NCBI GenBank assembly: GCA_945883495.1
Contig: CAMCXS010000011.1
Span: forward strand, 1-64,000
Direction of reading: 5' to 3'
Origin: Akkermansia muciniphila
GTDB lineage: Bacteria > Verrucomicrobiota > Verrucomicrobiia > Verrucomicrobiales > DEV007
Length of the DNA: 64,000 nt
Part shown: positions 30,797 to 48,820 of the stretch, piece after piece
How the letters are laid out: each line of letters starts with the position of its first letter
Position numbering within the stretch: the stretch's first letter is position 1
Notes under the pieces: model-generated
Told to the model about the DNA's origin: nothing
Seen by the model: only the letters and a program-made list of their open reading frames with translations
Databases searched by the model: none
Position numbers and translations under genes: made by a program

Positions 30797-33604
30797 ATGC
30801 ACGACGTCTTCCTCAGCTACAACAGCGCCGACCGGGCCGCCGCTCGGCTCATCCTGGCGGCTTTGGAGGCGCAGGGCCTGGAGGTGTTCCTTGATGAACG
30901 GGAACTCGCCGCCGGGCAGAACTTCATCCCGCGCCTGGAAGCCGCCCTCCTGGCCTGCCAATCCGTGGCCATTCTCATGGGGCCGCGTGGATTGGGCAAA
31001 TGGCAGCAGATCGAAAAAGACTTCGCGCTCGACCGCAAAGCCCGGGAACCGTCCCTGCCGGTCGTGCCTGTTCTGCTCCCCGGGGATGTCGATCCGCCCA
31101 CCGGGTTTCTTTCCCTGAACACCTGGATCGATCTCCGGGGCGGGGTGGAAAACGCTGACGGGATCGCCCGGCTCAGCGCGGCCTTGCGCAACCAGCCGCC
31201 TCCGGGCGCGGCGTTCAATCCGCGCAACGATGTCTGTCCCTACCGCGGCCTCTTGCCGTTCCGGGAGGAGGACCGGGAGTTTTACTTCGGCCGGGAACCC
31301 GACGTGGCCGCTTTGGTGAAATTGGTGAGGGAAGACCGGCATGCCGTGGTCCCGGTGATTGGCAGTTCCGGGAGCGGGAAATCGTCCTTGGTCTATGCCG
31401 GATTGATCCCGGAGTTGCGCAACCCCGCGCATCAGGCGGATCGCACGCCGTGGGAGATTCTCACCTTGCGCCCGCTCACGGATCCATTGGTCAGCCTCAT
31501 GGAAGCGGTATCCCCTCCGCCGGAGGATCTCGACCGCGCGGTGCGCATCGCCCGGCTCAACGAATCCGTCGAGGTCCTCCGCGCCGGCAAGGTCCGCCTT
31601 TCCCAACTGATCGAAGACGTCCTCAAACGCAGCGGCGGTTGCCAGAGGCTCCTCCTCTTCGTGGATCAATGGGAAGAACTCTACAGCCAGATCCCGCGCG
31701 ATGTCCCGGAAGCGGAGCGGAAAAAGGCCGAGGCGGATCGCATCCTCTTCATCGATGCCCTGCTCGAAGCCACGAAGCACTCCGCCTGCACCCTGGTCTT
31801 CACCGTCCGGGCAGACTTTTACGATCCGCTCCTGGGTTGGGACAACCGGCTCAAGCACGGCAAACTCCAGGAGCACCTCAACCGCGCCGGGCTCAGCCTG
31901 GGCCCGATGCACCGGGAAGCGCTCGAAGCCGCCATCGTCAAACCGGCCGAAAAGGCGGGCTACCGTTTTGCCGAAGGCCTGGTCAAAGTGATTCTCGATG
32001 AAGTGGGCCTTCAGCCGGGCCAGCTCCCGCTCCTGGAATTCTTCCTCCGGGAGCTTTGGCTGCGCCGGGATGGGGACGAGTTCACTTTCAAGGGCTACCA
32101 AGACAGCGGCGGCGTTTCCGGAGCCATCGCCCGCCGTGCGGACGACGAGTTCGCCAAGCTCCTCCGGACCGGGGACAAGAAACTGGAAGAAGCGGCCCGC
32201 CGCGTCTTCGTCAGCCTGGTGACGCCGGGGGAAGGCCGGGAAGACACCCGCGCGGTGATCTCCCTTCCGGAGAGCGGCCCGGAACGGCGGGTCGTGGAAT
32301 TCTTCAGCGCCCACGACGTCCGCCTCCTCGTGGCCGGAGAAGGCAAAGTGGAAGTCAGCCACGAAGCGCTGATCCGCCAGTGGGCGCGCTTGCAGAAGGA
32401 TTGGCTGGCAAAGAACCGGGATTTCCTCCGGGTGCGGGACCGGATCCGGGCGGGGCGGGATATCTGGGATCCGCCCTTGGCGGAGAGAGGAGAGGTTGAG
32501 AGCGCGAGGAAGGAGAAGGGGAGCGGGAAGAAGAAAGAGAAGCGCCGGTCGCCGGAACGGCTCATCCAGCGAGGCTTGGCGCTGCAAGAAGCCAAGGCGC
32601 TGCTGAAGCATCATGGGGACGTGATCATCGATGACATCTGGGAGTACATCCGGCTGTCGTTGCGCCGGGATTTTTGGCGGCGGGTGCGGGACGGGGTGTT
32701 TTTGACGGTGGTGGCGGGGATTGCGATGGTGGTGGGGTTTGTCGGACTCCTCGTGTTTATCGCGGGTTACGCAATGTTCACCGGCGAGGAAGACGCGTTG
32801 GAACGCTATCACCAAGAGGTTTACGAACGGGAAGTCGCGCCTCTGGAAGTTCCTAGTCGTACGGCGTCACCGCAGAGCTCCGTAACGCCATTGCGCCCAC
32901 ACACCAACCGGATTGGCATGGAAATGATCTGGTGTCCGCCAGGTTCGTTTCAAATGGGGAGTGCGGGAGAAGAGCCCGGTCGATCCTCTGATGAACGGTT
33001 GCATCACGTGACCTTGAGCCACGGATTCTTCCTGGCCAAGACGGAGGTGACTCAAGGGCAGTGGCTGCAACTCATGAAAACCAACCCAAGCCTGTTTCAC
33101 TGGGATGGGCGGTTGCCGGTCGACAGGGTTAGTTGGAATGGAGCGTCCGTCTTTTGCCGGACTTTGACCGAGCTGGAACGGGAAACAGGAACGCTCCCCG
33201 AAGATTGGGTGTACTCGCTGCCCACCGAAGCGCAGTGGGAATACGCTTGCCGCGCGGGGATCTCAGCGCCCTTTTCCGGACCGGCGCTTCCAGAACTGGG
33301 GTGGTACATCGGAAACGCTTGGTTTCACACCCATCCTGTCGGCTTGAAGCAGCCGAACCGGTGGGGCTTTCACGACATGCACGGGAACGTCTACGAATGG
33401 TGCCAGGATTGGGACGGTGACTACGAAAACGGTGATGCAGTCGATCCTAGTGGGGTTCGGGCGTTCTCGGATCGGGTGTCCCGGGGCGGCAGCTGGGGTA
33501 TCAACGCCGGGTGCTGCCGGTCCGCGTACCGATTTAGGGGGATGCCGGAGAGCCGGGACTTCAACCTGGGTTTTCGCCCAGTCCTCACCCTGGCCAGCAA
33601 GTAG
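30797..33604 (+). CDS. TIR - STAND NTPase - transmembrane - FGE-fold receptor-like protein
   Basis: A 935-residue multidomain protein. Residues 1-115 are a TIR domain (VFLSYNSADR; putative catalytic Glu in KWQQIEKDF). Residues about 145-560 are an nSTAND1-type NTPase, with the lead-in CPYRGLLPFREED, Walker A GSSGSGKSS (189-197) and Walker B LLLFVDQWEE (285-294). After a basic stretch (KKKEKRR; WRRVRD), one transmembrane helix lies at about 634-658. Residues 703-935 are an FGE/SUMF1 fold (GMEMIWCPPGSFQMGS, PTEAQWEYACRAG, DMHGNVYEWC, RVSRGGSW). By the positive-inside rule, TIR and STAND are cytoplasmic and the FGE domain is outside. Of the two FGE catalytic cysteines, the first is replaced (GI), so it probably recognises ligands. 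It is single, upstream of palindromic element A. Confidence 0.9.
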   Translation: MHDVFLSYNSADRAAARLILAALEAQGLEVFLDERELAAGQNFIPRLEAALLACQSVAILMGPRGLGKWQQIEKDFALDRKAREPSLPVVPVLLPGDVDPPTGFLSLNTWIDLRGGVENADGIARLSAALRNQPPPGAAFNPRNDVCPYRGLLPFREEDREFYFGREPDVAALVKLVREDRHAVVPVIGSSGSGKSSLVYAGLIPELRNPAHQADRTPWEILTLRPLTDPLVSLMEAVSPPPEDLDRAVRIARLNESVEVLRAGKVRLSQLIEDVLKRSGGCQRLLLFVDQWEELYSQIPRDVPEAERKKAEADRILFIDALLEATKHSACTLVFTVRADFYDPLLGWDNRLKHGKLQEHLNRAGLSLGPMHREALEAAIVKPAEKAGYRFAEGLVKVILDEVGLQPGQLPLLEFFLRELWLRRDGDEFTFKGYQDSGGVSGAIARRADDEFAKLLRTGDKKLEEAARRVFVSLVTPGEGREDTRAVISLPESGPERRVVEFFSAHDVRLLVAGEGKVEVSHEALIRQWARLQKDWLAKNRDFLRVRDRIRAGRDIWDPPLAERGEVESARKEKGSGKKKEKRRSPERLIQRGLALQEAKALLKHHGDVIIDDIWEYIRLSLRRDFWRRVRDGVFLTVVAGIAMVVGFVGLLVFIAGYAMFTGEEDALERYHQEVYEREVAPLEVPSRTASPQSSVTPLRPHTNRIGMEMIWCPPGSFQMGSAGEEPGRSSDERLHHVTLSHGFFLAKTEVTQGQWLQLMKTNPSLFHWDGRLPVDRVSWNGASVFCRTLTELERETGTLPEDWVYSLPTEAQWEYACRAGISAPFSGPALPELGWYIGNAWFHTHPVGLKQPNRWGFHDMHGNVYEWCQDWDGDYENGDAVDPSGVRAFSDRVSRGGSWGINAGCCRSAYRFRGMPESRDFNLGFRPVLTLASK

Positions 33605-33663
33605 CGGAGGGCGACTCGCCGGAGCCTGATCCGAGGGCGGTAGCCCGTCCCGGAGGGCGGATT

Positions 33664-33784
33664 CTTCGGACTGCGGTGACTTGTCACCGCCTTCAGAACC
33701 GAAGCTTGCTGAGGTTCAATCACGACGATGACTCCTCAGCAAGCTTCGTCGGGAAAGGCGGTGACAAGTCCCCGCAGTCCGAAG
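33664..33784. repeat. Palindromic element, copy A
   Basis: A 121-bp nested inverted repeat. The outer arms, 33664-33693 and 33755-33784, match at 29 of 30 positions; the inner arms, 33700-33714 and 33734-33748, are a perfect 15 bp (cgaagcttgctgagg). Copies B and C have the asymmetric centre in reverse-complement orientation. Sixty bases of left flank (33602-33661), directly after the FGE stop, are also shared with copy B. The remaining 162 bp up to the antitoxin gene (33785-33946) hold nothing recognisable. Confidence 0.9.
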
Positions 33785-33946
33785 GATGCCAGCCATCGGC
33801 GGGTTCGCTTTCAGCCCGCGGTTCGCCCAGACCATTGTGAGCGCATGGTGACGGCGAAAGCCAACGAGAAGGAGATCGACCAGTTCGTCAGGTGGCTCCC
33901 ACGAACCTGGTCGTTAGGGTAAGTCTTTGGACAGGTCGCCATCAGG

Positions 33947-34183
33947 CTACAGCCGGTCATGCGCTTCCGGCTCCACATCGGGCACTTTGGCCAAGACTCG
34001 TTCAAACTTCTCCCGGCTCCCGCGCGCGGCGCGCTTTTGGATGTAGGTGTCCGCATCCAGCACCGCGACCTTTTCCGCCAACGCCGTCGCGATGAATTGG
34101 TCCAGCGTCACTCCGTCTGCCTGGGCCAGCGACTCCGCGCGAAGGCGGAGGGATTCGGGGATGTTCACATTCATGAGGCTCAT
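33947..34183 (-). CDS. Ribbon-helix-helix antitoxin of a PIN toxin pair
   Basis: A 78-residue protein starting MSLMNVNIPESLRLRAESLA. The N-terminal strand-helix-helix pattern (NVNIPESLRLRAESLAQADG, then VTLDQFIATALAEKVAVL) fits a ribbon-helix-helix DNA-binding fold, and the C-terminal tail (SREKFERVLAKVPDVEPEA) would wrap the toxin. The start overlaps the PIN gene stop by 4 bp (ATGA), so translation is coupled. The toxin gene comes first, the reverse of the usual order. I assign it as antitoxin by fold and position. RHH antitoxins normally repress their own promoter, which here would lie upstream of the toxin at about 34600-34750. Confidence 0.78.
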   Translation of the reverse strand: MSLMNVNIPESLRLRAESLAQADGVTLDQFIATALAEKVAVLDADTYIQKRAARGSREKFERVLAKVPDVEPEAHDRL

Positions 34184-34596
34184 CTCGGGAAGAGGATACG
34201 CAGAAACTCTGCCGGTGTCACCGCGCGAATTCCCAAGTCGTTCACTCCGGGAAAGTGGCGGACGTTGTGGGTCACGATGAATGGCGCTCCACCCGCTAGG
34301 GCGAGTTCCAGGACCAAATCGTCCTGGGGGTCCGGCAGATGAGGCCGCCAAAGAAAGTGGATGTGGCACTCGATGCACTCGGAAAGGAAGTAATCCAGGA
34401 AGTCATCAATGTCCTCCGTCGTGAATCCCGGCAGTAGGCCCGGCCGGCGCAGGACGGCTTCATATTCCAGGCAAAGTGGCGGCGAGATGACCGGCTCAAT
34501 CTGGGTCGAGCCGAACGCCTGCATCAGCCGGAAGGATGCCCCACGCCGGGAACGCAGCGAAGACACCAGGACGTTCGTATCGATGACAACGCGCAC
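34180..34596 (-). CDS. PIN-domain toxin (putative RNase)
   Basis: A 138-residue PIN-domain protein of the COG1569 type. It starts at GTG: MRVVIDTNVLVSSLRSRRGA, where the first metal-binding aspartate is D5 or D6 of the IDTNV motif. The other acidic residues are E in CLEYEAVLRR, the pair in PDPQDDLVLELALAGG, and NDLG near the end. PIN toxins are Mg2+-dependent ribonucleases that cleave tRNA, rRNA or mRNA. A frame extension of 19 codons upstream (LRRVNPSLHLS) reads through palindromic element E and is not the natural start. It is translationally coupled to the RHH antitoxin gene. Confidence 0.85.
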   Translation of the reverse strand: MRVVIDTNVLVSSLRSRRGASFRLMQAFGSTQIEPVISPPLCLEYEAVLRRPGLLPGFTTEDIDDFLDYFLSECIECHIHFLWRPHLPDPQDDLVLELALAGGAPFIVTHNVRHFPGVNDLGIRAVTPAEFLRILFPR

Positions 34597-34607
34597 GAGA
34601 GGGCATA

Positions 34608-34659
34608 ACCGAAGTTCGCTGAGGTGCAACGATGGATTCACTCGCCTCAGCAAACTCGT
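34608..34659. repeat. Palindromic element, degenerate copy E
   Basis: A diverged half-size copy of the central part of the palindromic element: inner arms cgaagttcgctgagg and cctcagcaaactcg flank a centre of about 16 bp. It sits directly upstream of the PIN toxin start, in its probable promoter. The outer arms are not recognisable. Confidence 0.6.
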
Positions 34660-34753
34660 ATGAGCTGGAAGCCGCGTCCGAAGGTCCCGCCGGGCTAGTT
34701 CTCCTTCCGGAGAGATTTGCTGGCAATGGACTCCGTGCTATCGATGCGCCTTG

Positions 34754-35922
34754 ATGTCAGGCATCTTCGTCAGTCACTCCAGCAAGAACCGGGACTTCGT
34801 GGTGGGCGCCATTCTCCCAATGCTCAAGGCGGAGGGCTGGAATCCATGGTATTCCGACGAGCGGATCACAGCGGCCGATCAATGGCGGCGCGAGATCAAG
34901 GACGGGCTGGAGCGCTGTCCCTGGTTCTTGGTGGTGCTCTCCCCGGAGGCCGTGGCTTCGGAATGGGTCGAAGTCGAAGTGGACTGGGCCATGGAACACC
35001 GCCGGGGGCGGATCATCCCGTTGATCTACTGGGAGTGCCGGGTGGATGACCTCCATCTCTTCCTGCGCAAGCTCCAGCACATCCGCTTCACGGAAAACAC
35101 CGCAGCCGATCGCGCACGGGTGGCGGCGGAGTTGCGCCGGGTGATGGGCGCGAGTTCGCCAGCCGCTCCGGCTACATCCAAAGTTCCCAAGACCATTCCG
35201 CTCATCCAGGAAGTGAGTTCCCCGGCCGAGTCCAATTTCACCAATCGCCACGGCCTGGAAATGATCTGGTGTCCGCCGGGGAAGTTCCTCATGGGCAGCC
35301 CGGAGTCGGAGCCGGGTCGCTCTTCCGATGAAACCCAGCACGAGGTGACGCTGACGCGGGGCTTTTGGATCAGCCGGTTTCCGGTGACTCAGGAACAGTG
35401 GAAGAAGCTGATGAGGACGAATCCGAGCCACTTCACGAAATCCGGACGGAAGGCGCCGGTGGAAGCCGTCAGTTGGGACGATGCGATGGCGTTTTGCGCC
35501 AGGCTCGGTCCGGAACCGGATGGGCGGGGCTACACTCTGCCGACGGAAGCGCAATGGGAATACGCATGCCGGGCGGGCACCAAGGGACGATATGCGCACA
35601 CGAGTTTGGGCAAGATGGGCTGGTACCTTTTAAACAGTTGGTTCAAGTCCCATCCGGTGGGTGAAAAGCAAGGCAATCCTTGGGGGTTTATGACATGCAT
35701 GGGAATGTCTGGGAATGGTGCCTGGATTGGTATGGACCGTATCGCTCCGCGCCGGTCACGGATCCTACGGGTCCCCCGCAGGCCTCGAATCGGGTGATCC
35801 GGGGCGGCAGCTGGAGCAGCAACGCCGGGGACTGCCGGTCCGCCATCCGCCTCAGAAACACGCCGGAGGCCCGCAACAACAACCTGGGGTTCCGCCCAGT
35901 CCTTAACCTAGCCAGCCAGTAG
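34754..35922 (+). pseudogene. TIR - FGE-fold protein interrupted by a frameshift at a G5 tract
   Basis: Residues 1-125 are a TIR domain (GIFVSHSSKNRDFVVGAILP; putative catalytic Glu in SEWVEVEVDW). After a short linker, an FGE/SUMF1 fold begins (LEMIWCPPGKFLMGS, PTEAQWEYACRAG). There is no STAND or transmembrane segment. At 35682-35686 a run of five G shifts the frame: the upstream frame reads PWGFMTCMGMSG and ends at 35797, while the expected VYDMHGNVWEWC continues in the other frame to 35922. A sixth G would restore one 390-residue protein. This could be a true mutation, phase variation or a sequencing error. The end (RVIRGGSW ... GFRPVLNLASQ) matches the 30797 gene closely, and the FGE catalytic cysteine pair is incomplete. 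Confidence 0.85.
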
Positions 35923-35981: not shown

Positions 35982-36098
35982 CTTCGGACTGCGGGGACTT
36001 GTCACCGCCTTTCCCGACGAAGCTTGCTGAGGAGTCATCATCGTGATTGAACCTCAGCAAGCTTCGGTTCTGAAGGCGGTGACGAGTCCCCTCAGTCC
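35982..36098. repeat. Palindromic element, copy B
   Basis: The same nested palindrome as copy A, with its centre (agtcatcatcgtgattgaa) the reverse complement of A's centre. The outer left arm is 35982-36011 and the right arm begins at 36073. The 60-bp left flank after the TIR-FGE stop matches copy A's, and the right flank (atgccgaaag) is shared with copy C. Confidence 0.9.
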
Positions 36099-36909: not shown

Positions 36910-37067
36910 CTTCGGACTGCGGGGACTCGTCACCGCCTTTCCCCGACGAAGCTTGCTGAGGAGTCATCCTCGTGATTGAACCTCAGCAAGCTTCGGTTCT
37001 GAAGGCGGTGACAAGTCCCCGCAGTCCGAGCTTCGTCGGGAAAGGCGGTGACAAGTCCCCGCAGTCC
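36910..37067. repeat. Palindromic element, copy C with duplicated arm
   Basis: Positions 36910-37029 form a full copy in the orientation of B. A second right half (37030-37067: cttcgtcggg then aaggcggtgacaagtcc) follows and matches the right end of copy A, so this locus looks like a recombined or nested element. The right flank resembles that of copy B. The 97 bp after it, up to the Uma2 remnant, hold nothing recognisable. Confidence 0.88.
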
Positions 37068-37413: not shown

Positions 37414-37471
37414 TCATGCGCAGTCCGGTCTCATCCACCCCAATCCGCTCCCAAATCTGGGGGAATCGTCC

Positions 37472-37764
37472 ACCGGACGCCGGAACGACGATTCGCCGTT
37501 TCGGGAAGTGGCACCGGACGCAGGAACGACGTTTCCCCCGTTTTGGGGAGTGGCACCGGACGCAGGAACGACGATTCCCCCGTTTCGGGAAATGCCACCG
37601 GAAGCGGGAACGACGCTTCCCCCGAATCGGGAAGTGCTCCCGGACGCCGGAACGACGATTCCCCCGTTTCGGGAAGTGCTTCCGGACGCCGGAAAGGCCA
37701 TTCCCCCGTTTCGGGAGGTGAATCGGACGCGGGGAAGATGATTACGCCGTTTTCTCGGCGAAAT
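37472..37764. repeat. 42-bp tandem repeat array at the 3' end of the 37742-38428 gene, about 7 units
   Basis: Units begin at 37472, 37513, 37555, 37597, 37639, 37681 and 37723. The first is 41 bp and the next five exactly 42 bp. Each holds cggacgc, gaacgacgatt and the hairpin cccgtttcggg. The last unit runs into the final codons and stop of the minus-strand gene, so the array probably arose by slippage or duplication of that gene's 3' end. The same array type recurs at 43941-44236, again next to a copy of this gene's tail. No translation signal supports the open frames inside. Confidence 0.88.
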
Positions 37765-42075: not shown

Positions 42076-42876
42076 ATGAAGCCCTCCCGGCCCCTCACGC
42101 TCCACCTGACCCGTCCGTTCTTCGGCGGCGGAGTGACCATGGTCTTCCGCCGCATCCCGGCGGTGCGCTTTGTGATGGGGGCGCGGGGGGAATACGAGGA
42201 TGAAGAACCGCCGCACGAGGTCGAACTCACCCGGGATTACTGGATGGCGGAAACGCCGGTGACGCAGCGGCAGTTCGCGGTGTGGACGAAGGCGGCCAAG
42301 ATCCAGCACGAGAACCATTTTAAGGACAAACCCGATCACCCTGCGGAAAACATGGATTGGAATGAAGCGACCGCGTTTTGCCAATGGTTGACGAAGGGAT
42401 GCCGGGGTGGAATCCCCAAAGGGATGGTGGCGCGCTTGCCGACGGAGGCGGAGTGGGAGCGCGCGTGCCGGTCCGGGACGGATTCGCAGACAACGGACTC
42501 GGAGTATTGGAGCGGGGATGGAGTGGGTGCGTTGGCCGAAGCAGGGTGGTTCAACAAGAACTCAAACTCTTCGACCCAGCCGGTGCGTGCCAAAGCCGCC
42601 AACGGTTTCGGGCTTTACGACATGCATGGAAATGTCTGGGAGTGGTGCGCTGATGCGTGGGACGACCGGGCCTACGCGAGACGAGTGAGCGGCTTCCAAG
42701 ATCCTTACAACGCGCCGCGCGAAGAGGACCCGTATCGCGTGCCGCGCGGCGGCTCGTGGGGCATCTCCGCCGGGTACTGCCGTTCCGGCTTTCGGGCTAG
42801 GAGGAGGCTGAACAGGCGGTACGGGGACCAGGGGTTTCGGGTCTGTTTGGGGCGCGATCTGGCGGAGCCGTCTTGA
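42076..42876 (+). CDS. Stand-alone FGE/SUMF1-fold protein
   Basis: A 266-residue protein consisting of one FGE-sulfatase domain: FRRIPAVRFVMGARGEYEDE, ETPVTQRQFAVW, RLPTEAEWERACRSG, GLYDMHGNVWEWCADAWDD, then VPRGGSWGISAGYCRSGFRA and GFRVCLG. There is no signal peptide, TIR or membrane segment. Genuine formylglycine-generating enzymes have two catalytic cysteines in R-G-G-S-x-L-C-x(4)-C; here the first is absent (GI) and the second present (YC), so oxidation of sulfatases is unlikely. The gene shares its N-terminal extension (LTLHLTR) with the pseudogene at 43463, its tandem paralog. I infer a ligand-binding or ternary-system protein of the island. Confidence 0.85.
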   Translation: MKPSRPLTLHLTRPFFGGGVTMVFRRIPAVRFVMGARGEYEDEEPPHEVELTRDYWMAETPVTQRQFAVWTKAAKIQHENHFKDKPDHPAENMDWNEATAFCQWLTKGCRGGIPKGMVARLPTEAEWERACRSGTDSQTTDSEYWSGDGVGALAEAGWFNKNSNSSTQPVRAKAANGFGLYDMHGNVWEWCADAWDDRAYARRVSGFQDPYNAPREEDPYRVPRGGSWGISAGYCRSGFRARRRLNRRYGDQGFRVCLGRDLAEPS

Positions 42877-44706: not shown

Positions 44707-46212
44707 TCAGCGCACTTGTCCGCGTGCCCGGATTTGGTCGAGCAATCGGCCGAGTTCCTGCACTCGCTCCGGTTGGGCCGCGTAAACGTTGCGGTGTTGG
44801 CCCAGGTCGGTGCTCAAGTCGTAGAGCTCGCCGGGCAGGGAATTGGGTTGGTATCCATTGGATTCGTCGAACCAAGCCGGCACTTTGGAAATCGCGCCGC
44901 CGGTTTTGGCGGCGATGAGCAGCCATTGGCCATGACGCAGGCCATAGCCGTTGGGGTTGGTGTTGTGGACGAGCGTCTGGCGGGCGCTGGGGCCTTCGCC
45001 CTTGAGCAACGCGAGTTGATTGTAGCTGTCTTCGGCGGATCCGGCGGGAATCTCGGCTCCGATGACTTTGGCGATGGTGGCGTAGAGATCGATTTGGCTG
45101 AGCAAGCCGTCTGATACCTTTCCGGCAGGAACGACGCCAGGCCAGCGCACGAGAAAGGGCACCCGGTGGCCGCCTTCATAGAGATCGCGCTTCAGTCCGC
45201 GCAGTGGGCCCATGCTGCGGTGGCCGAACTTCTGGACCCGTTCGTAGGCGTAATGCTCGGGACCGTTGTCGGCGCTGAAAATCACCAAGGTGTTCTCGGC
45301 GAAACCCGCCTTTTGCAATGCCTGGAGCACGCGCCCGACGGTATCGTCCGTCTGGACAACGAAGTCGCCGAAGCCTCCTGCGTTGGATTTACCCTCAAAC
45401 TCGGCGGCGGGAACGATCGGCGCATGGGGTGACGTGAACGGAAGGTAGAGGAAGAAGGGTTTCTCCTTGGTTTGGCGCGCGATCCACTCTTCCGCCTTGT
45501 CGGTGAGCGTGGGCATCACGGCCCAGAAATCCCAGTCCTTCACCGATGGTCCCGGACGCGCTTCCCAGTCTCCTTCCGCGGCGGGTTTTGGCGTCGCGAC
45601 GGGCACCGTCGGCTCCGTGACGACGCGATCATTCTGGAACCAGGCATAAGGCGGGAAGTTCGGGACATCGTCTCCGAAGTATTCGTCGAACCCATGGGAC
45701 AACGGGCCGCCCGGGATTGGCTTGGACCAGTCAAACGCATCCGGAGCGAAGCCGCCTGCGCCCTTGACCTGCTTGCCGTTCTTCTCGCCATCCGCGGCCA
45801 CGGCGCCGGGCTTCTTGATCGCGTTCCAGTCCCAGCCGAGATGCCATTTGCCGATGCAGGCAGTGGCGTAGCCCTTGGATTTGAGGAGCTCCGGCAAGGT
45901 GGTCTTCTCGTCATCCAGGACGGGTGGATCGAAGCTGCCGACGATTCCGTGGAACTTCCGCCAGTGGTAACGCCCCTGCAGCAGTGCATAGCGGCTGGGC
46001 GTGCAGACGCCCGATGAGCTATGAGCGTCCGTGAAGCGGGTTCCCTCGTGCGCAAGGCGATCCAGATTGGGGGTGGGGATCTTCGATTCCGGGTTTTGGA
46101 CGCCGAGATCGCCGTAGCCCATGTCGTCGGCATAGAGGATGACGATGTTTGGCGGCGTGGCCCAGGCGGAGCCGAGCAGGGCCAACAGCAAAAGAGCAGA
46201 TACGATCTTCAA
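44707..46212 (-). CDS. Secreted arylsulfatase-type sulfatase (S1)
   Basis: A 501-residue protein with a signal peptide (MKIVSALLLLALLGSAWA). The N-terminal metal motif is NIVILYADDMGYGDLG (D-D), and the sulfatase signature is SSGVCTPSRYALLQGRY, whose cysteine (C-x-P-S-R) would be converted to formylglycine. Further active-site segments are GKWHLGWDW, TSPHAPI and FSADNGPEHY. It would hydrolyse sulfate esters of a polysaccharide or aromatic compound in the periplasm or outside. None of the FGE-fold proteins in this window looks able to activate it, so a true FGE must be elsewhere. It is divergent from the propeller gene across 80 bp. Confidence 0.93.
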   Translation of the reverse strand: MKIVSALLLLALLGSAWATPPNIVILYADDMGYGDLGVQNPESKIPTPNLDRLAHEGTRFTDAHSSSGVCTPSRYALLQGRYHWRKFHGIVGSFDPPVLDDEKTTLPELLKSKGYATACIGKWHLGWDWNAIKKPGAVAADGEKNGKQVKGAGGFAPDAFDWSKPIPGGPLSHGFDEYFGDDVPNFPPYAWFQNDRVVTEPTVPVATPKPAAEGDWEARPGPSVKDWDFWAVMPTLTDKAEEWIARQTKEKPFFLYLPFTSPHAPIVPAAEFEGKSNAGGFGDFVVQTDDTVGRVLQALQKAGFAENTLVIFSADNGPEHYAYERVQKFGHRSMGPLRGLKRDLYEGGHRVPFLVRWPGVVPAGKVSDGLLSQIDLYATIAKVIGAEIPAGSAEDSYNQLALLKGEGPSARQTLVHNTNPNGYGLRHGQWLLIAAKTGGAISKVPAWFDESNGYQPNSLPGELYDLSTDLGQHRNVYAAQPERVQELGRLLDQIRARGQVR

Positions 46213-46292: not shown

Positions 46293-47381
46293 GTGGAGAC
46301 GTGCTTTTCCGCTGTGGTCTCCTACCGTACTTTTTTACCCGTTGTTTCCGCTCTTTGCCTGGGTTCCGTGGCGTTGGCGGAAGATTCCTCTTTGCTCGGC
46401 CACGGCAGCGCGCGTTACCGGATCAACACGAGCTGGGCCAAGGTAGAGCCCTCGGTGGCTCCGGTGATCAATGCGCATGGGCTGGCGGAAGATCGCGCCG
46501 GACGCATCTATCTGGTCACCGACCATCCGCAGAATGACTTCCTCGTGTTTGAGAAGGACGGACGTTTTGTGCGCTCGATTCGCGCGGGCCTCGGGGGCGG
46601 ACACGGTTTGGAAATCTTTGAGAGCGGCGGCCGCGAGTATCTTCTGCATATCGACTGTGGGTGGCATTTTGCGGCGGAGGGTTGGAATCCAACCCCCGGG
46701 GAGGGCCGGGTGACGCTGCTCACGACCGAGGGCAAAGTGGTGCGCAAATTCCCCACGCCCGCTGAGCTTGGCGTGCGCGATGGCAAGTTCCTGCCCTGCG
46801 ATGCGGCGGTGACGCCCGCCGGGACCATACTGATCGCGGACGGCTACGGATCGAACTTCATTTACGAATTCAGTGTGGAAGGGGCGTTGCTGAACAAGTG
46901 GGGCGGCCCGAGCAAGGATGCGGCCAATCTGAGCAACGCACATGGAATCTCCATTGATACCACCGATGCACGCGGACCTTTGGTTTGGATTCCGTCGCGC
47001 GCTCAAAGTCAGCTGAAGGCGTTCAAGCTCGATGGGACCTATGTCGAAACTCTGGACCTGCCGGGGACCTATGCGGGGCAGCTAGCCTTCCGGGACGACA
47101 AGATGTATACGGCAGTTTGTTGGAGCAAGGAGAAGGGGACGGGGAAGAAGCTCTCCAACTCCGGTTTCATCCTCATTCTGGATCGAAAGTCAAAGAAAGT
47201 GATCAGCGCCCCGGGAGGCAGCGAACCGGTCTATATCGATGGCAAATTGCAGCCGATGTATCAATCCGCCCCGGTCTTCAAGCATGGCCACGACCTCTAT
47301 GTGGACCGTGCCGGAGATATTTACGTCGGCGAATGGAATGCGGAGCGGAGATATCCTTACAAGCTCGTGCTGGAGCGTTGA
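46293..47381 (+). CDS. Secreted NHL-type six-bladed beta-propeller protein
   Basis: A 362-residue protein. The preferred start is GTG at 46293, because it gives a signal peptide (VETCFSAVVSYRTFLPVVSA, first residue read as Met, then LCLGSVALAED); an upstream extension of the frame has none. The body contains NHL/SMP-30-like blades: INAHGLAEDRAGRIYLVTDH, GGGHGLEIFESGGREYLLHI, SNAHGISIDTTDARGPLVWI and HGHDLYVDRAGDIYVGEWNA. The histidine-containing A-H-G motifs at blade starts resemble peptidyl-glycine lyase-like propellers. The catalytic role is unknown. The gene lies between two sulfatase genes, overlapping the second convergently by 25 bp, and could belong to a polysaccharide-use locus. Confidence 0.8.
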   Translation: METCFSAVVSYRTFLPVVSALCLGSVALAEDSSLLGHGSARYRINTSWAKVEPSVAPVINAHGLAEDRAGRIYLVTDHPQNDFLVFEKDGRFVRSIRAGLGGGHGLEIFESGGREYLLHIDCGWHFAAEGWNPTPGEGRVTLLTTEGKVVRKFPTPAELGVRDGKFLPCDAAVTPAGTILIADGYGSNFIYEFSVEGALLNKWGGPSKDAANLSNAHGISIDTTDARGPLVWIPSRAQSQLKAFKLDGTYVETLDLPGTYAGQLAFRDDKMYTAVCWSKEKGTGKKLSNSGFILILDRKSKKVISAPGGSEPVYIDGKLQPMYQSAPVFKHGHDLYVDRAGDIYVGEWNAERRYPYKLVLER

Positions 47382-48820
47382 GGGAACTGCTGGAGGAGCA
47401 ATTCACGAGCTCGCTTTTGCGTTTCGATCAGCTTGGCATCGCCGACTGCGTTGCGGAGTTCCTGGGGATCAGTCTGGTGGTCGTAAAGCTCCTGGGCGAC
47501 GACCTCGCCGCTTTTCCAGTCCCGCCACTCTGTGTAGCGCACTTGCTGCGTGCGCACGCTGTAACCCATGGCGGTGGGCGTGCCGGAGGGTTCGCGGTCG
47601 TAGTAGGCGGGACGGGGATGTTGGCTGAAGGCGCCTTCGTGAACGGTCGCGGTGGGATCGCGCAGGACGGGAACAAGGCTGCGGCCGTCGAGTCCGCCCG
47701 GTGTGCTGAGTCCGCAAAGTTCCACAAGGGTGGGAAACAAATCGGTCAGCTCGGCGAGTGAGTTGGTGCGGACGCCAGCCTGGATTCCTTGGCCGGAAAA
47801 GAGCATCGGGACGCGGGCATCATACTCAAACGTGGAGGTTTTGCCCCACAGGGTGTGTTCGCCGAGGTGGTAGCCGTGATCGCTGAAGAACACGATGATG
47901 GTCTTTTCGGCCAAGCCTTGCTCTTCCAGCGCGTCGAGGACTCTGCCCAACTGCGCGTCAAGGTAGCTGACGTTTGCATAATAGCCATGCCGCCATTCGG
48001 CAGCCTGCGCCGGCGATGGTGTGACCTTGTTGGCACCGGCGCCGAGGACCTCGGTACTGGCGTGAAACGCGAGCTCCGGCGCTCCCTCCGGGCGCTCTCC
48101 ACGGAGCGGCGGAAGCTGTTCCCGCTGGTAGAGGTCCCAATACTTTTTGGGCGCATTGAACGGAGCATGAGGTTTCCAGAAGCCGACAGCCAGAAAGAAT
48201 GGCTGATCCTTGATCTCGGCGATCACCTTGACGCCTTCGGTAGCGACTCGGCCATCGTAGTAGGCTTCGTCCGGCACGTCACGGCACTCGCAGAGCGGAC
48301 CGTTTCCGTAGTTACGGAGATTGGCGGTGGAGAGATTGGGAGGAAGCTCGCCCTCGACCTGAGGTGCGTCGTCGCCGTGGTTGGCGTAATGCAGAAACTC
48401 CGGGGCGCTCCAAGAACGGCGGTCCCCTTGTTCCTTGGTGTGCCAGTTGTGAAATATCTTTCCGGTGCAGCGGGTCACATAGCCATTTTGGAGAAACCAT
48501 TGTGGGATGGTGACGACGGACGGATTGAGTTCGCGGAAGTGGGTACTGTTGTTCCAGATCCGCAACCTGTCGGGGCGCAATCCAGTTAGCAGCGAAGAAC
48601 GGGAGGGATTGCAAACGGCCTGTTGGCAATAGGCGTGGTCGAACTGCATCCCGCGGTTGGCCAACCGATCGAGATTCGGCGTGATCGCGGCCGATCCGTA
48701 ACTGGCGAGCTCCGGCCGGAAATCATCGGCCATGAGAAAGAGGACGTTTGGCTTGTCCGCGGCGGTGCTGGAGAGGGCGCCGCAGAGAATCACGAGGGCG
48801 ATGGGTAGAAAAGAAGACAT
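47357..48820 (-). CDS. Secreted sulfatase, iduronate-2-sulfatase-like
   Basis: A 487-residue S1 sulfatase with a signal peptide (MSSFLPIALVILCGALSSTA). Signatures are NVLFLMADDFRPELASYGSA, QAVCNPSRSSLLTGLRPD (formylglycine cysteine in C-x-P-S-R), TGKIFHNWH, FWKPHAPFNAPKKYWDLY and FFSDHGYHLGEH. The FWKPH-P-F and DHGYHLGEH segments are typical of iduronate-2-sulfatase relatives, which act on sulfated uronic acid polymers. It is last in a minus-strand run with the LOG, TlyA and NAD kinase genes (9 bp gap after NAD kinase) and overlaps the propeller gene convergently. Confidence 0.92.
   Translation of the reverse strand: MSSFLPIALVILCGALSSTAADKPNVLFLMADDFRPELASYGSAAITPNLDRLANRGMQFDHAYCQQAVCNPSRSSLLTGLRPDRLRIWNNSTHFRELNPSVVTIPQWFLQNGYVTRCTGKIFHNWHTKEQGDRRSWSAPEFLHYANHGDDAPQVEGELPPNLSTANLRNYGNGPLCECRDVPDEAYYDGRVATEGVKVIAEIKDQPFFLAVGFWKPHAPFNAPKKYWDLYQREQLPPLRGERPEGAPELAFHASTEVLGAGANKVTPSPAQAAEWRHGYYANVSYLDAQLGRVLDALEEQGLAEKTIIVFFSDHGYHLGEHTLWGKTSTFEYDARVPMLFSGQGIQAGVRTNSLAELTDLFPTLVELCGLSTPGGLDGRSLVPVLRDPTATVHEGAFSQHPRPAYYDREPSGTPTAMGYSVRTQQVRYTEWRDWKSGEVVAQELYDHQTDPQELRNAVGDAKLIETQKRARELLLQQFPQRSSTSL

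Follow-up and report, generated by a model that had tools for sequence, protein, structure and literature searches.

A TIR-nSTAND1 protein with a predicted membrane helix and an FGE-type head: a possible membrane-spanning version of receptors that some bacteria deliberately mutate

The window considered here, a stretch of 64,000 nucleotides assigned to Akkermansia muciniphila, encodes a protein of 935 residues from an intact open reading frame. Reading frame and Pfam agree with the initial annotation in placing a TIR domain, an nSTAND1 NTPase, a basic stretch, a hydrophobic helix and an FGE domain in this one chain (Table 1). All three Pfam domains (TIR_2, nSTAND1 and FGE-sulfatase) score well over the cut-off. 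Judged from sequence, the catalytic motifs of the TIR domain and the NTPase are intact: the putative glutamate of TIR NADase catalysis is present as E73, the NTPase has a Walker A motif (GSSGSGKSS at 189) and a Walker B region (LLLFVDQWEE at 285), and neither W69 and E73 nor the core Walker residues vary between the window protein and the three planctomycete proteins of TIR-nSTAND1-FGE composition aligned with it.

Downstream of the gene are a PIN-domain gene, a second TIR-FGE gene, a ROCO-type TIR gene, a stand-alone FGE gene and two sulfatase-like genes. The neighbouring TIR-FGE gene is frameshifted in its FGE part, near 35690. A long palindromic repeat is found behind both TIR-FGE genes (33661-33787, 35982-36098 and 36910-37029), with 29 matches in the genome in all; its copy at 33661-33787, situated behind the VR-like segment of the window gene, was considered as the cruciform of a diversity-generating retroelement (DGR) and turned out to be this dispersed repeat. 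A tandem array with a period of 42 bases occupies positions 37454-37758, between the TIR-FGE and the Roc-COR-TIR genes.

Table 1. Features of the locus, with positions counted from the first nucleotide of the window.
Feature	Position	Strand	Basis or remark
Gene for the TIR-nSTAND1-TM-FGE protein, 935 aa	30797..33604	+	ORF and Pfam
TIR_2, residues 4-126; W69 and putative catalytic E73 kept	30806..31174	+	Pfam, E 4e-20
nSTAND1 NTPase, residues 148-558	31238..32470	+	Pfam, E 1e-99
Basic stretch, residues about 571-588	32507..32560	+	Sequence
Predicted transmembrane helix, residues about 634-660, positive side toward the N-terminus	32696..32776	+	Sequence and model
FGE-like domain (C-type-lectin fold), FGE-sulfatase, residues 709-929	32921..33583	+	Pfam, E 2e-37
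VR-like segment at the 3' end of the gene	33476..33583	+	Comparison with neighbour and templates
PIN-domain gene	34180-34653	-	Downstream of the window gene
Neighbouring TIR-FGE gene, no predicted TM	34751..35922	+	VR-like segment from 35794
ROCO-type TIR protein: LRR-like N-terminus, Roc, COR-A, TIR, 992 aa	38554-41532	-	
Stand-alone FGE gene	42076-42876		
Two sulfatase-like genes with C-x-P-S-R motifs	44707-46212 and 47357-48820		

Between the NTPase and the FGE domain, residues 634-660 constitute a run of 27 uncharged hydrophobic residues that is preceded by the basic stretch. The Kyte-Doolittle peak over 19 residues is 2.82, a value matched by 1 of 5,000 shuffled versions of the protein. 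On the Wimley-White octanol scale, the linker attains a best 19-residue sum of -7.94, and the best sum elsewhere in the chain is -2.12. The 21-residue flanks hold six K+R and four D+E before the segment, two K+R and seven D+E after it; these charges fit the positive-inside rule, which predicts TIR and NTPase inside and the FGE domain outside. The AlphaFold model of residues 600-935, only moderate in quality (mean pLDDT of 64.7), contains a single long helix at model residues 36-62, corresponding to about 635-661. Two hydrophobicity scales together with the charge bias thus uphold, as a prediction, the N-in/C-out topology proposed initially, and the window protein is predicted to be a single-pass receptor with one transmembrane helix.

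The helix has many counterparts in the family. The comparison covered 30 nSTAND1 proteins, taken from the window's phylum, Planctomycetota, and cyanobacterial, actinobacterial and Caballeronia plasmids. In 22 of them, counting the window protein, a hydrophobic segment follows the NTPase at a distance of no more than about 150 residues, compared to 3 of 105 control segments located further along the same proteins, a contrast that is indicative given a sample of best matches that is not random and includes one incomplete protein, and controls that are mostly repeat sensors. The N-terminal flank of the segments is usually net positive, and the proteins bearing the helix carry differing sensors. 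Most of the cyanobacterial, actinobacterial and Caballeronia proteins, with WD40, pentapeptide and other sensors, share the helix and its basic N-flank with the window protein, whereas they differ from it in having WD40 or another sensor and no FGE domain. The protein of the Caballeronia plasmid pNK84 is TIR-nSTAND1-TM-WD40, and the plasmid relatives reach TIR-nSTAND1-TM at most. From its frequency in this sample, the membrane-spanning layout seems to characterise much of the nSTAND1 family rather than a single gene.

Strong nSTAND1 matches were found in 9 of 343 genomes from the phylum of a Planctomycetota MAG. TIR-nSTAND1-FGE architecture is represented there by three proteins (L159, L164 and L168), and several further planctomycete proteins are nSTAND1-FGE, with or without a transmembrane segment. 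The Wimley-White scan detects no hydrophobic segment in the linker of two of the three; the exception, L168, probably has a transmembrane helix in this place (Wimley-White sum of -7.6, yet a borderline Kyte-Doolittle value of 1.34). In the window's phylum, nSTAND1 occurs in 13 of 289 genomes, and the search of these genomes revealed no FGE head on any other fetched nSTAND1 protein; among the genomes sampled from its own phylum, the window protein alone is TIR-nSTAND1-TM-FGE.

FGE heads on predicted membrane proteins recur within the window genome itself, in which FGE matches number 51. Two proteins are TIR-TM-FGE with no STAND part: L036 on contig C151 (6127-7695, minus strand, 523 aa, hydrophobicity peak of 3.33) and L051 on C48 (4876-7185, plus strand, predicted transmembrane segment), the TIR domain of the latter being under the Pfam cut-off and recovered by homology to the C151 TIR (39% identity, E 4e-32). 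Both resemble animal Toll-like receptors in layout. The protein of C63 combines TIR and a transmembrane segment with a different C-terminal part, and two further proteins are Pkinase-TM-FGE. The repeated use in one genome of an effector inside, a single transmembrane segment and an FGE head supports the topology predicted for the window protein. Other FGE proteins of the genome are built differently. Contig C128 encodes a DUF4062-NACHT-FGE protein (L045, 7058-9961, plus strand), and DUF4062 has recently been reported to act in the Swarozyc defence system as a TIR-like NADase (PMC13174449). Two other proteins string FGE domains together, about six of them on C128 (L045, 1-5085) and about eight on C4 (L046, 3772-11157), and the VR-like segments of these multi-FGE proteins are strongly varied.

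With somewhat better than even confidence, we understand the window protein as a membrane STAND receptor having an outward FGE head and TIR as its output. The best surviving alternative is a cytosolic or membrane-peripheral STAND sensor, the helix of which would anchor or pack and the head of which would detect invader molecules in the cytoplasm. Cytoplasmic sensing is the proposal for most STAND-FGS proteins and most described STAND sensors are cytosolic; the neighbouring TIR-FGE gene is free of a transmembrane segment, and the two planctomycete TIR-nSTAND1-FGE proteins devoid of a hydrophobic linker imply that a cytoplasmic location is compatible with a functional head as well. We nevertheless consider this explanation unlikely, for the 27 uncharged residues are by far the strongest hydrophobic stretch of the chain, a positive-inside bias accompanies them, and TIR-TM-FGE as well as Pkinase-TM-FGE proteins are encoded in the same genome. 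Quite improbable, in our assessment, is a housekeeping or developmental receptor (e.g., for kin or surface recognition), the TIR domain of which would signal or scaffold without killing. The abundance of FGE heads in the genome and their presence on protein kinases are consistent with such a role, as is the outcome of PADLOC, which for the three proteins scanned recognised no defence-system gene set and returned weak TIR-region matches only, with no full-length match of the window protein to a defence model. The catalytic glutamate kept in the TIR domain argues against it, as does the island-like setting with a PIN protein, a second TIR-FGE protein and the LRR-like Roc-COR-TIR gene nearby.

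As regards the FGE head in the receptor reading that we prefer, the evidence points away from enzymatic function. The active site of human formylglycine-generating enzyme comprises the cysteine pair C336 and C341, named in structures 2aft and 2afy. In the window protein, motif spacing puts I902, five residues before C907, in the place of the first catalytic cysteine, and C907 is retained, so the pair of cysteines five apart that characterises the enzyme is broken. The absence of one of the two catalytic cysteines, pointed out in the initial annotation, is thus confirmed, and the motif supports loss of FGE catalysis in the window protein. The C-x4-C motif is absent from every fetched FGE locus of the window genome. 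Among solved proteins, TvpA of Treponema denticola (PDB 2y3c; E 3e-25) comes nearest to the FGE domain in sequence, and this DGR variable protein is also among the best matches by fold; structure prediction, recommended earlier for the head and done on residues 600-935, gives an FGE/TvpA-like fold, matching FGE enzymes, TvpA and PvdO. TvpA is an outer-membrane lipoprotein (PMC10907252) and differs from the window protein in having neither TIR nor STAND. Sulfatase maturation, in which the FGE domain would make formylglycine for the C-x-P-S-R sulfatase-like proteins encoded nearby, was discarded on the missing cysteine and is hardly credible, considering the Ile in its place, a best solved-structure sequence match that is TvpA and not an enzyme, and a fusion to TIR and STAND that makes little sense for a maturase.

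In the planctomycete locus L168 (G527:C125, 463-5179), the TIR-nSTAND1-(probable TM)-FGE gene has a template repeat (TR) and a DGR reverse transcriptase downstream of its VR, and the mismatches between TR and VR fall on template adenines in 18 of 18 cases; L168 is the target of a complete adjacent DGR. It shares with the window protein the same three domains, the probable transmembrane segment in the same linker and a VR-like segment of the same spacing, and it differs in the adjacent DGR and in an overall identity of only about 30%. The window genome contains three TR/VR pairs, all of them involving FGE variable regions: L023 (C187), L024 (C64) and L048 (C76). Reverse transcriptases adjoin the pairs on C187 and C64, whereas the template on C76 is present with no reverse transcriptase match and may depend on a reverse transcriptase in trans. 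VR and template on C76 are separated by a small ORF and a gene for a REP-type transposase (Y1_Tnp). None of the three templates fits as the source of the window VR. No DGR reverse transcriptase is found within the window, and a DNA search of the whole assembly (6.46 Mb, 206 contigs) with the VR region returned no template for the window gene, matching only the neighbouring TIR-FGE gene (78%) and the framework of other FGE genes; with completeness estimated at about 96%, the assembly could lack a template that the genome has.

The VR-like segment nonetheless bears a distinctive pattern. With 12 variable codons defined by the three genomic templates, a single comparison, of the window gene with its TIR-FGE neighbour over their 3' ends, reveals differences in 10 of 12 variable codons and in 1 of 24 others (Fisher p 2.7e-6), in addition to six silent changes in non-variable codons. 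No other of the 120 FGE pairs examined in the genome differs at so few constant positions. Across all 120 pairs, about 90% of the variable positions and 27% of the others differ, and because of this general variation the pattern by itself is not proof of DGR action. Variable codons ending in C are expected since the template codons are AAC; counted as single comparisons, they make up 12 of 12 in the neighbour, compared to 11 of 22 codons elsewhere (p 0.003), and 9 of 12 in the window gene, compared to 7 of 22 elsewhere (p 0.03). An old DGR origin of the VR in the window gene is therefore likely from the sequences, while its current diversification is not supported by the assembly. The earlier suggestion of a possibly diversified ectodomain is plausible to the extent that the codon pattern and the DGR-targeted L168 speak for it, whereas the assembly offers no template.

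Much of the architecture has precedent. Kaur et al. (2021, eLife; PMC8195603) present STAND NTPase-FGS proteins as predicted conflict systems, which include nSTAND1 and TIR as components and often have a DGR nearby or elsewhere in the genome. The window protein shares the described order of an N-terminal effector (including TIR), a central STAND NTPase and a C-terminal FGS/FGE domain; it differs in the membrane helix between NTPase and FGS, a feature absent from the section of that paper on these proteins. Dore et al. (2024, PNAS; PMC10907252) report DGR-diversified CLec sensors in multicellular bacteria, the targets including nSTAND1 or NACHT STAND proteins with a variable C-terminal CLec/FGE domain, some also with TIR, and some predicted to be periplasmic or membrane-spanning, among them a periplasmic CLec in a STAND protein. 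The window protein is like these targets in its STAND and C-terminal CLec/FGE domains and in the TIR that some of them have, and unlike them in that its gene has no detectable TR or adjacent reverse transcriptase. A cyanobacterial study of 2020 adds DGR variable proteins that contain TIR-like domains, as well as targets located away from the DGR locus (PMC7517822). Since a helix after nSTAND1 is common in the proteins compared and combinations of TIR, STAND and FGE are published (PMC8195603, PMC10907252), the designation as a new type of receptor is not supported. The combination is mostly not new, and the window protein appears as a good example of a receptor class already described.

The mechanism that we propose for the membrane STAND receptor begins with the FGE head, which would sit outside of the cytoplasmic membrane and bind a ligand (a phage, neighbour-cell or envelope molecule) through a variable face built from roughly the final 35 residues. 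Receptors would gather upon binding, the nSTAND1 domain would swap nucleotide and oligomerise, and the clustered TIR domains would cleave NAD+ or make a nucleotide signal, with the effect that the cell stops. Clustering, oligomerisation and TIR output are modelled here on established knowledge of STAND and TIR defence proteins. The binding face would derive from a retroelement-diversified FGE lineage, with no current template in the assembled genome. Most likely, as read from its domains, the protein would be a membrane-anchored receptor that feeds into an abortive pathway, with TIR bringing about cell suicide; our confidence in an action directed specifically against phages is lower than in the receptor reading as a whole.

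Lastly, most of the STAND defence proteins studied so far detect invaders that are already intracellular. If a TIR-STAND protein exposed its lectin-like head on the outside, surface contact could trigger a suicide response, in a layout like that of the animal Toll-like receptors, and DGR hypermutation of such a head would mean a receptor diversified in advance. The full scenario, a transmembrane immune receptor having an outward lectin head of retroelement-hypermutated lineage and signalling inside through the NTPase and a TIR NADase, is put forward tentatively and we regard it as rather doubtful. If true, it would represent a surface receptor of an adaptive-like kind, able to sample threats before they enter the cell; L168, with its complete adjacent DGR, would be a working example of the hypermutated receptor, and the window gene would be a copy cut off from its template, or else one diversified in trans from an unassembled template. 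Some bacteria deliberately mutate receptors of this class, and the window protein may be a membrane-spanning version of them. More generally, and easily tested, many nSTAND1 proteins may span the membrane, whatever sensor they carry.
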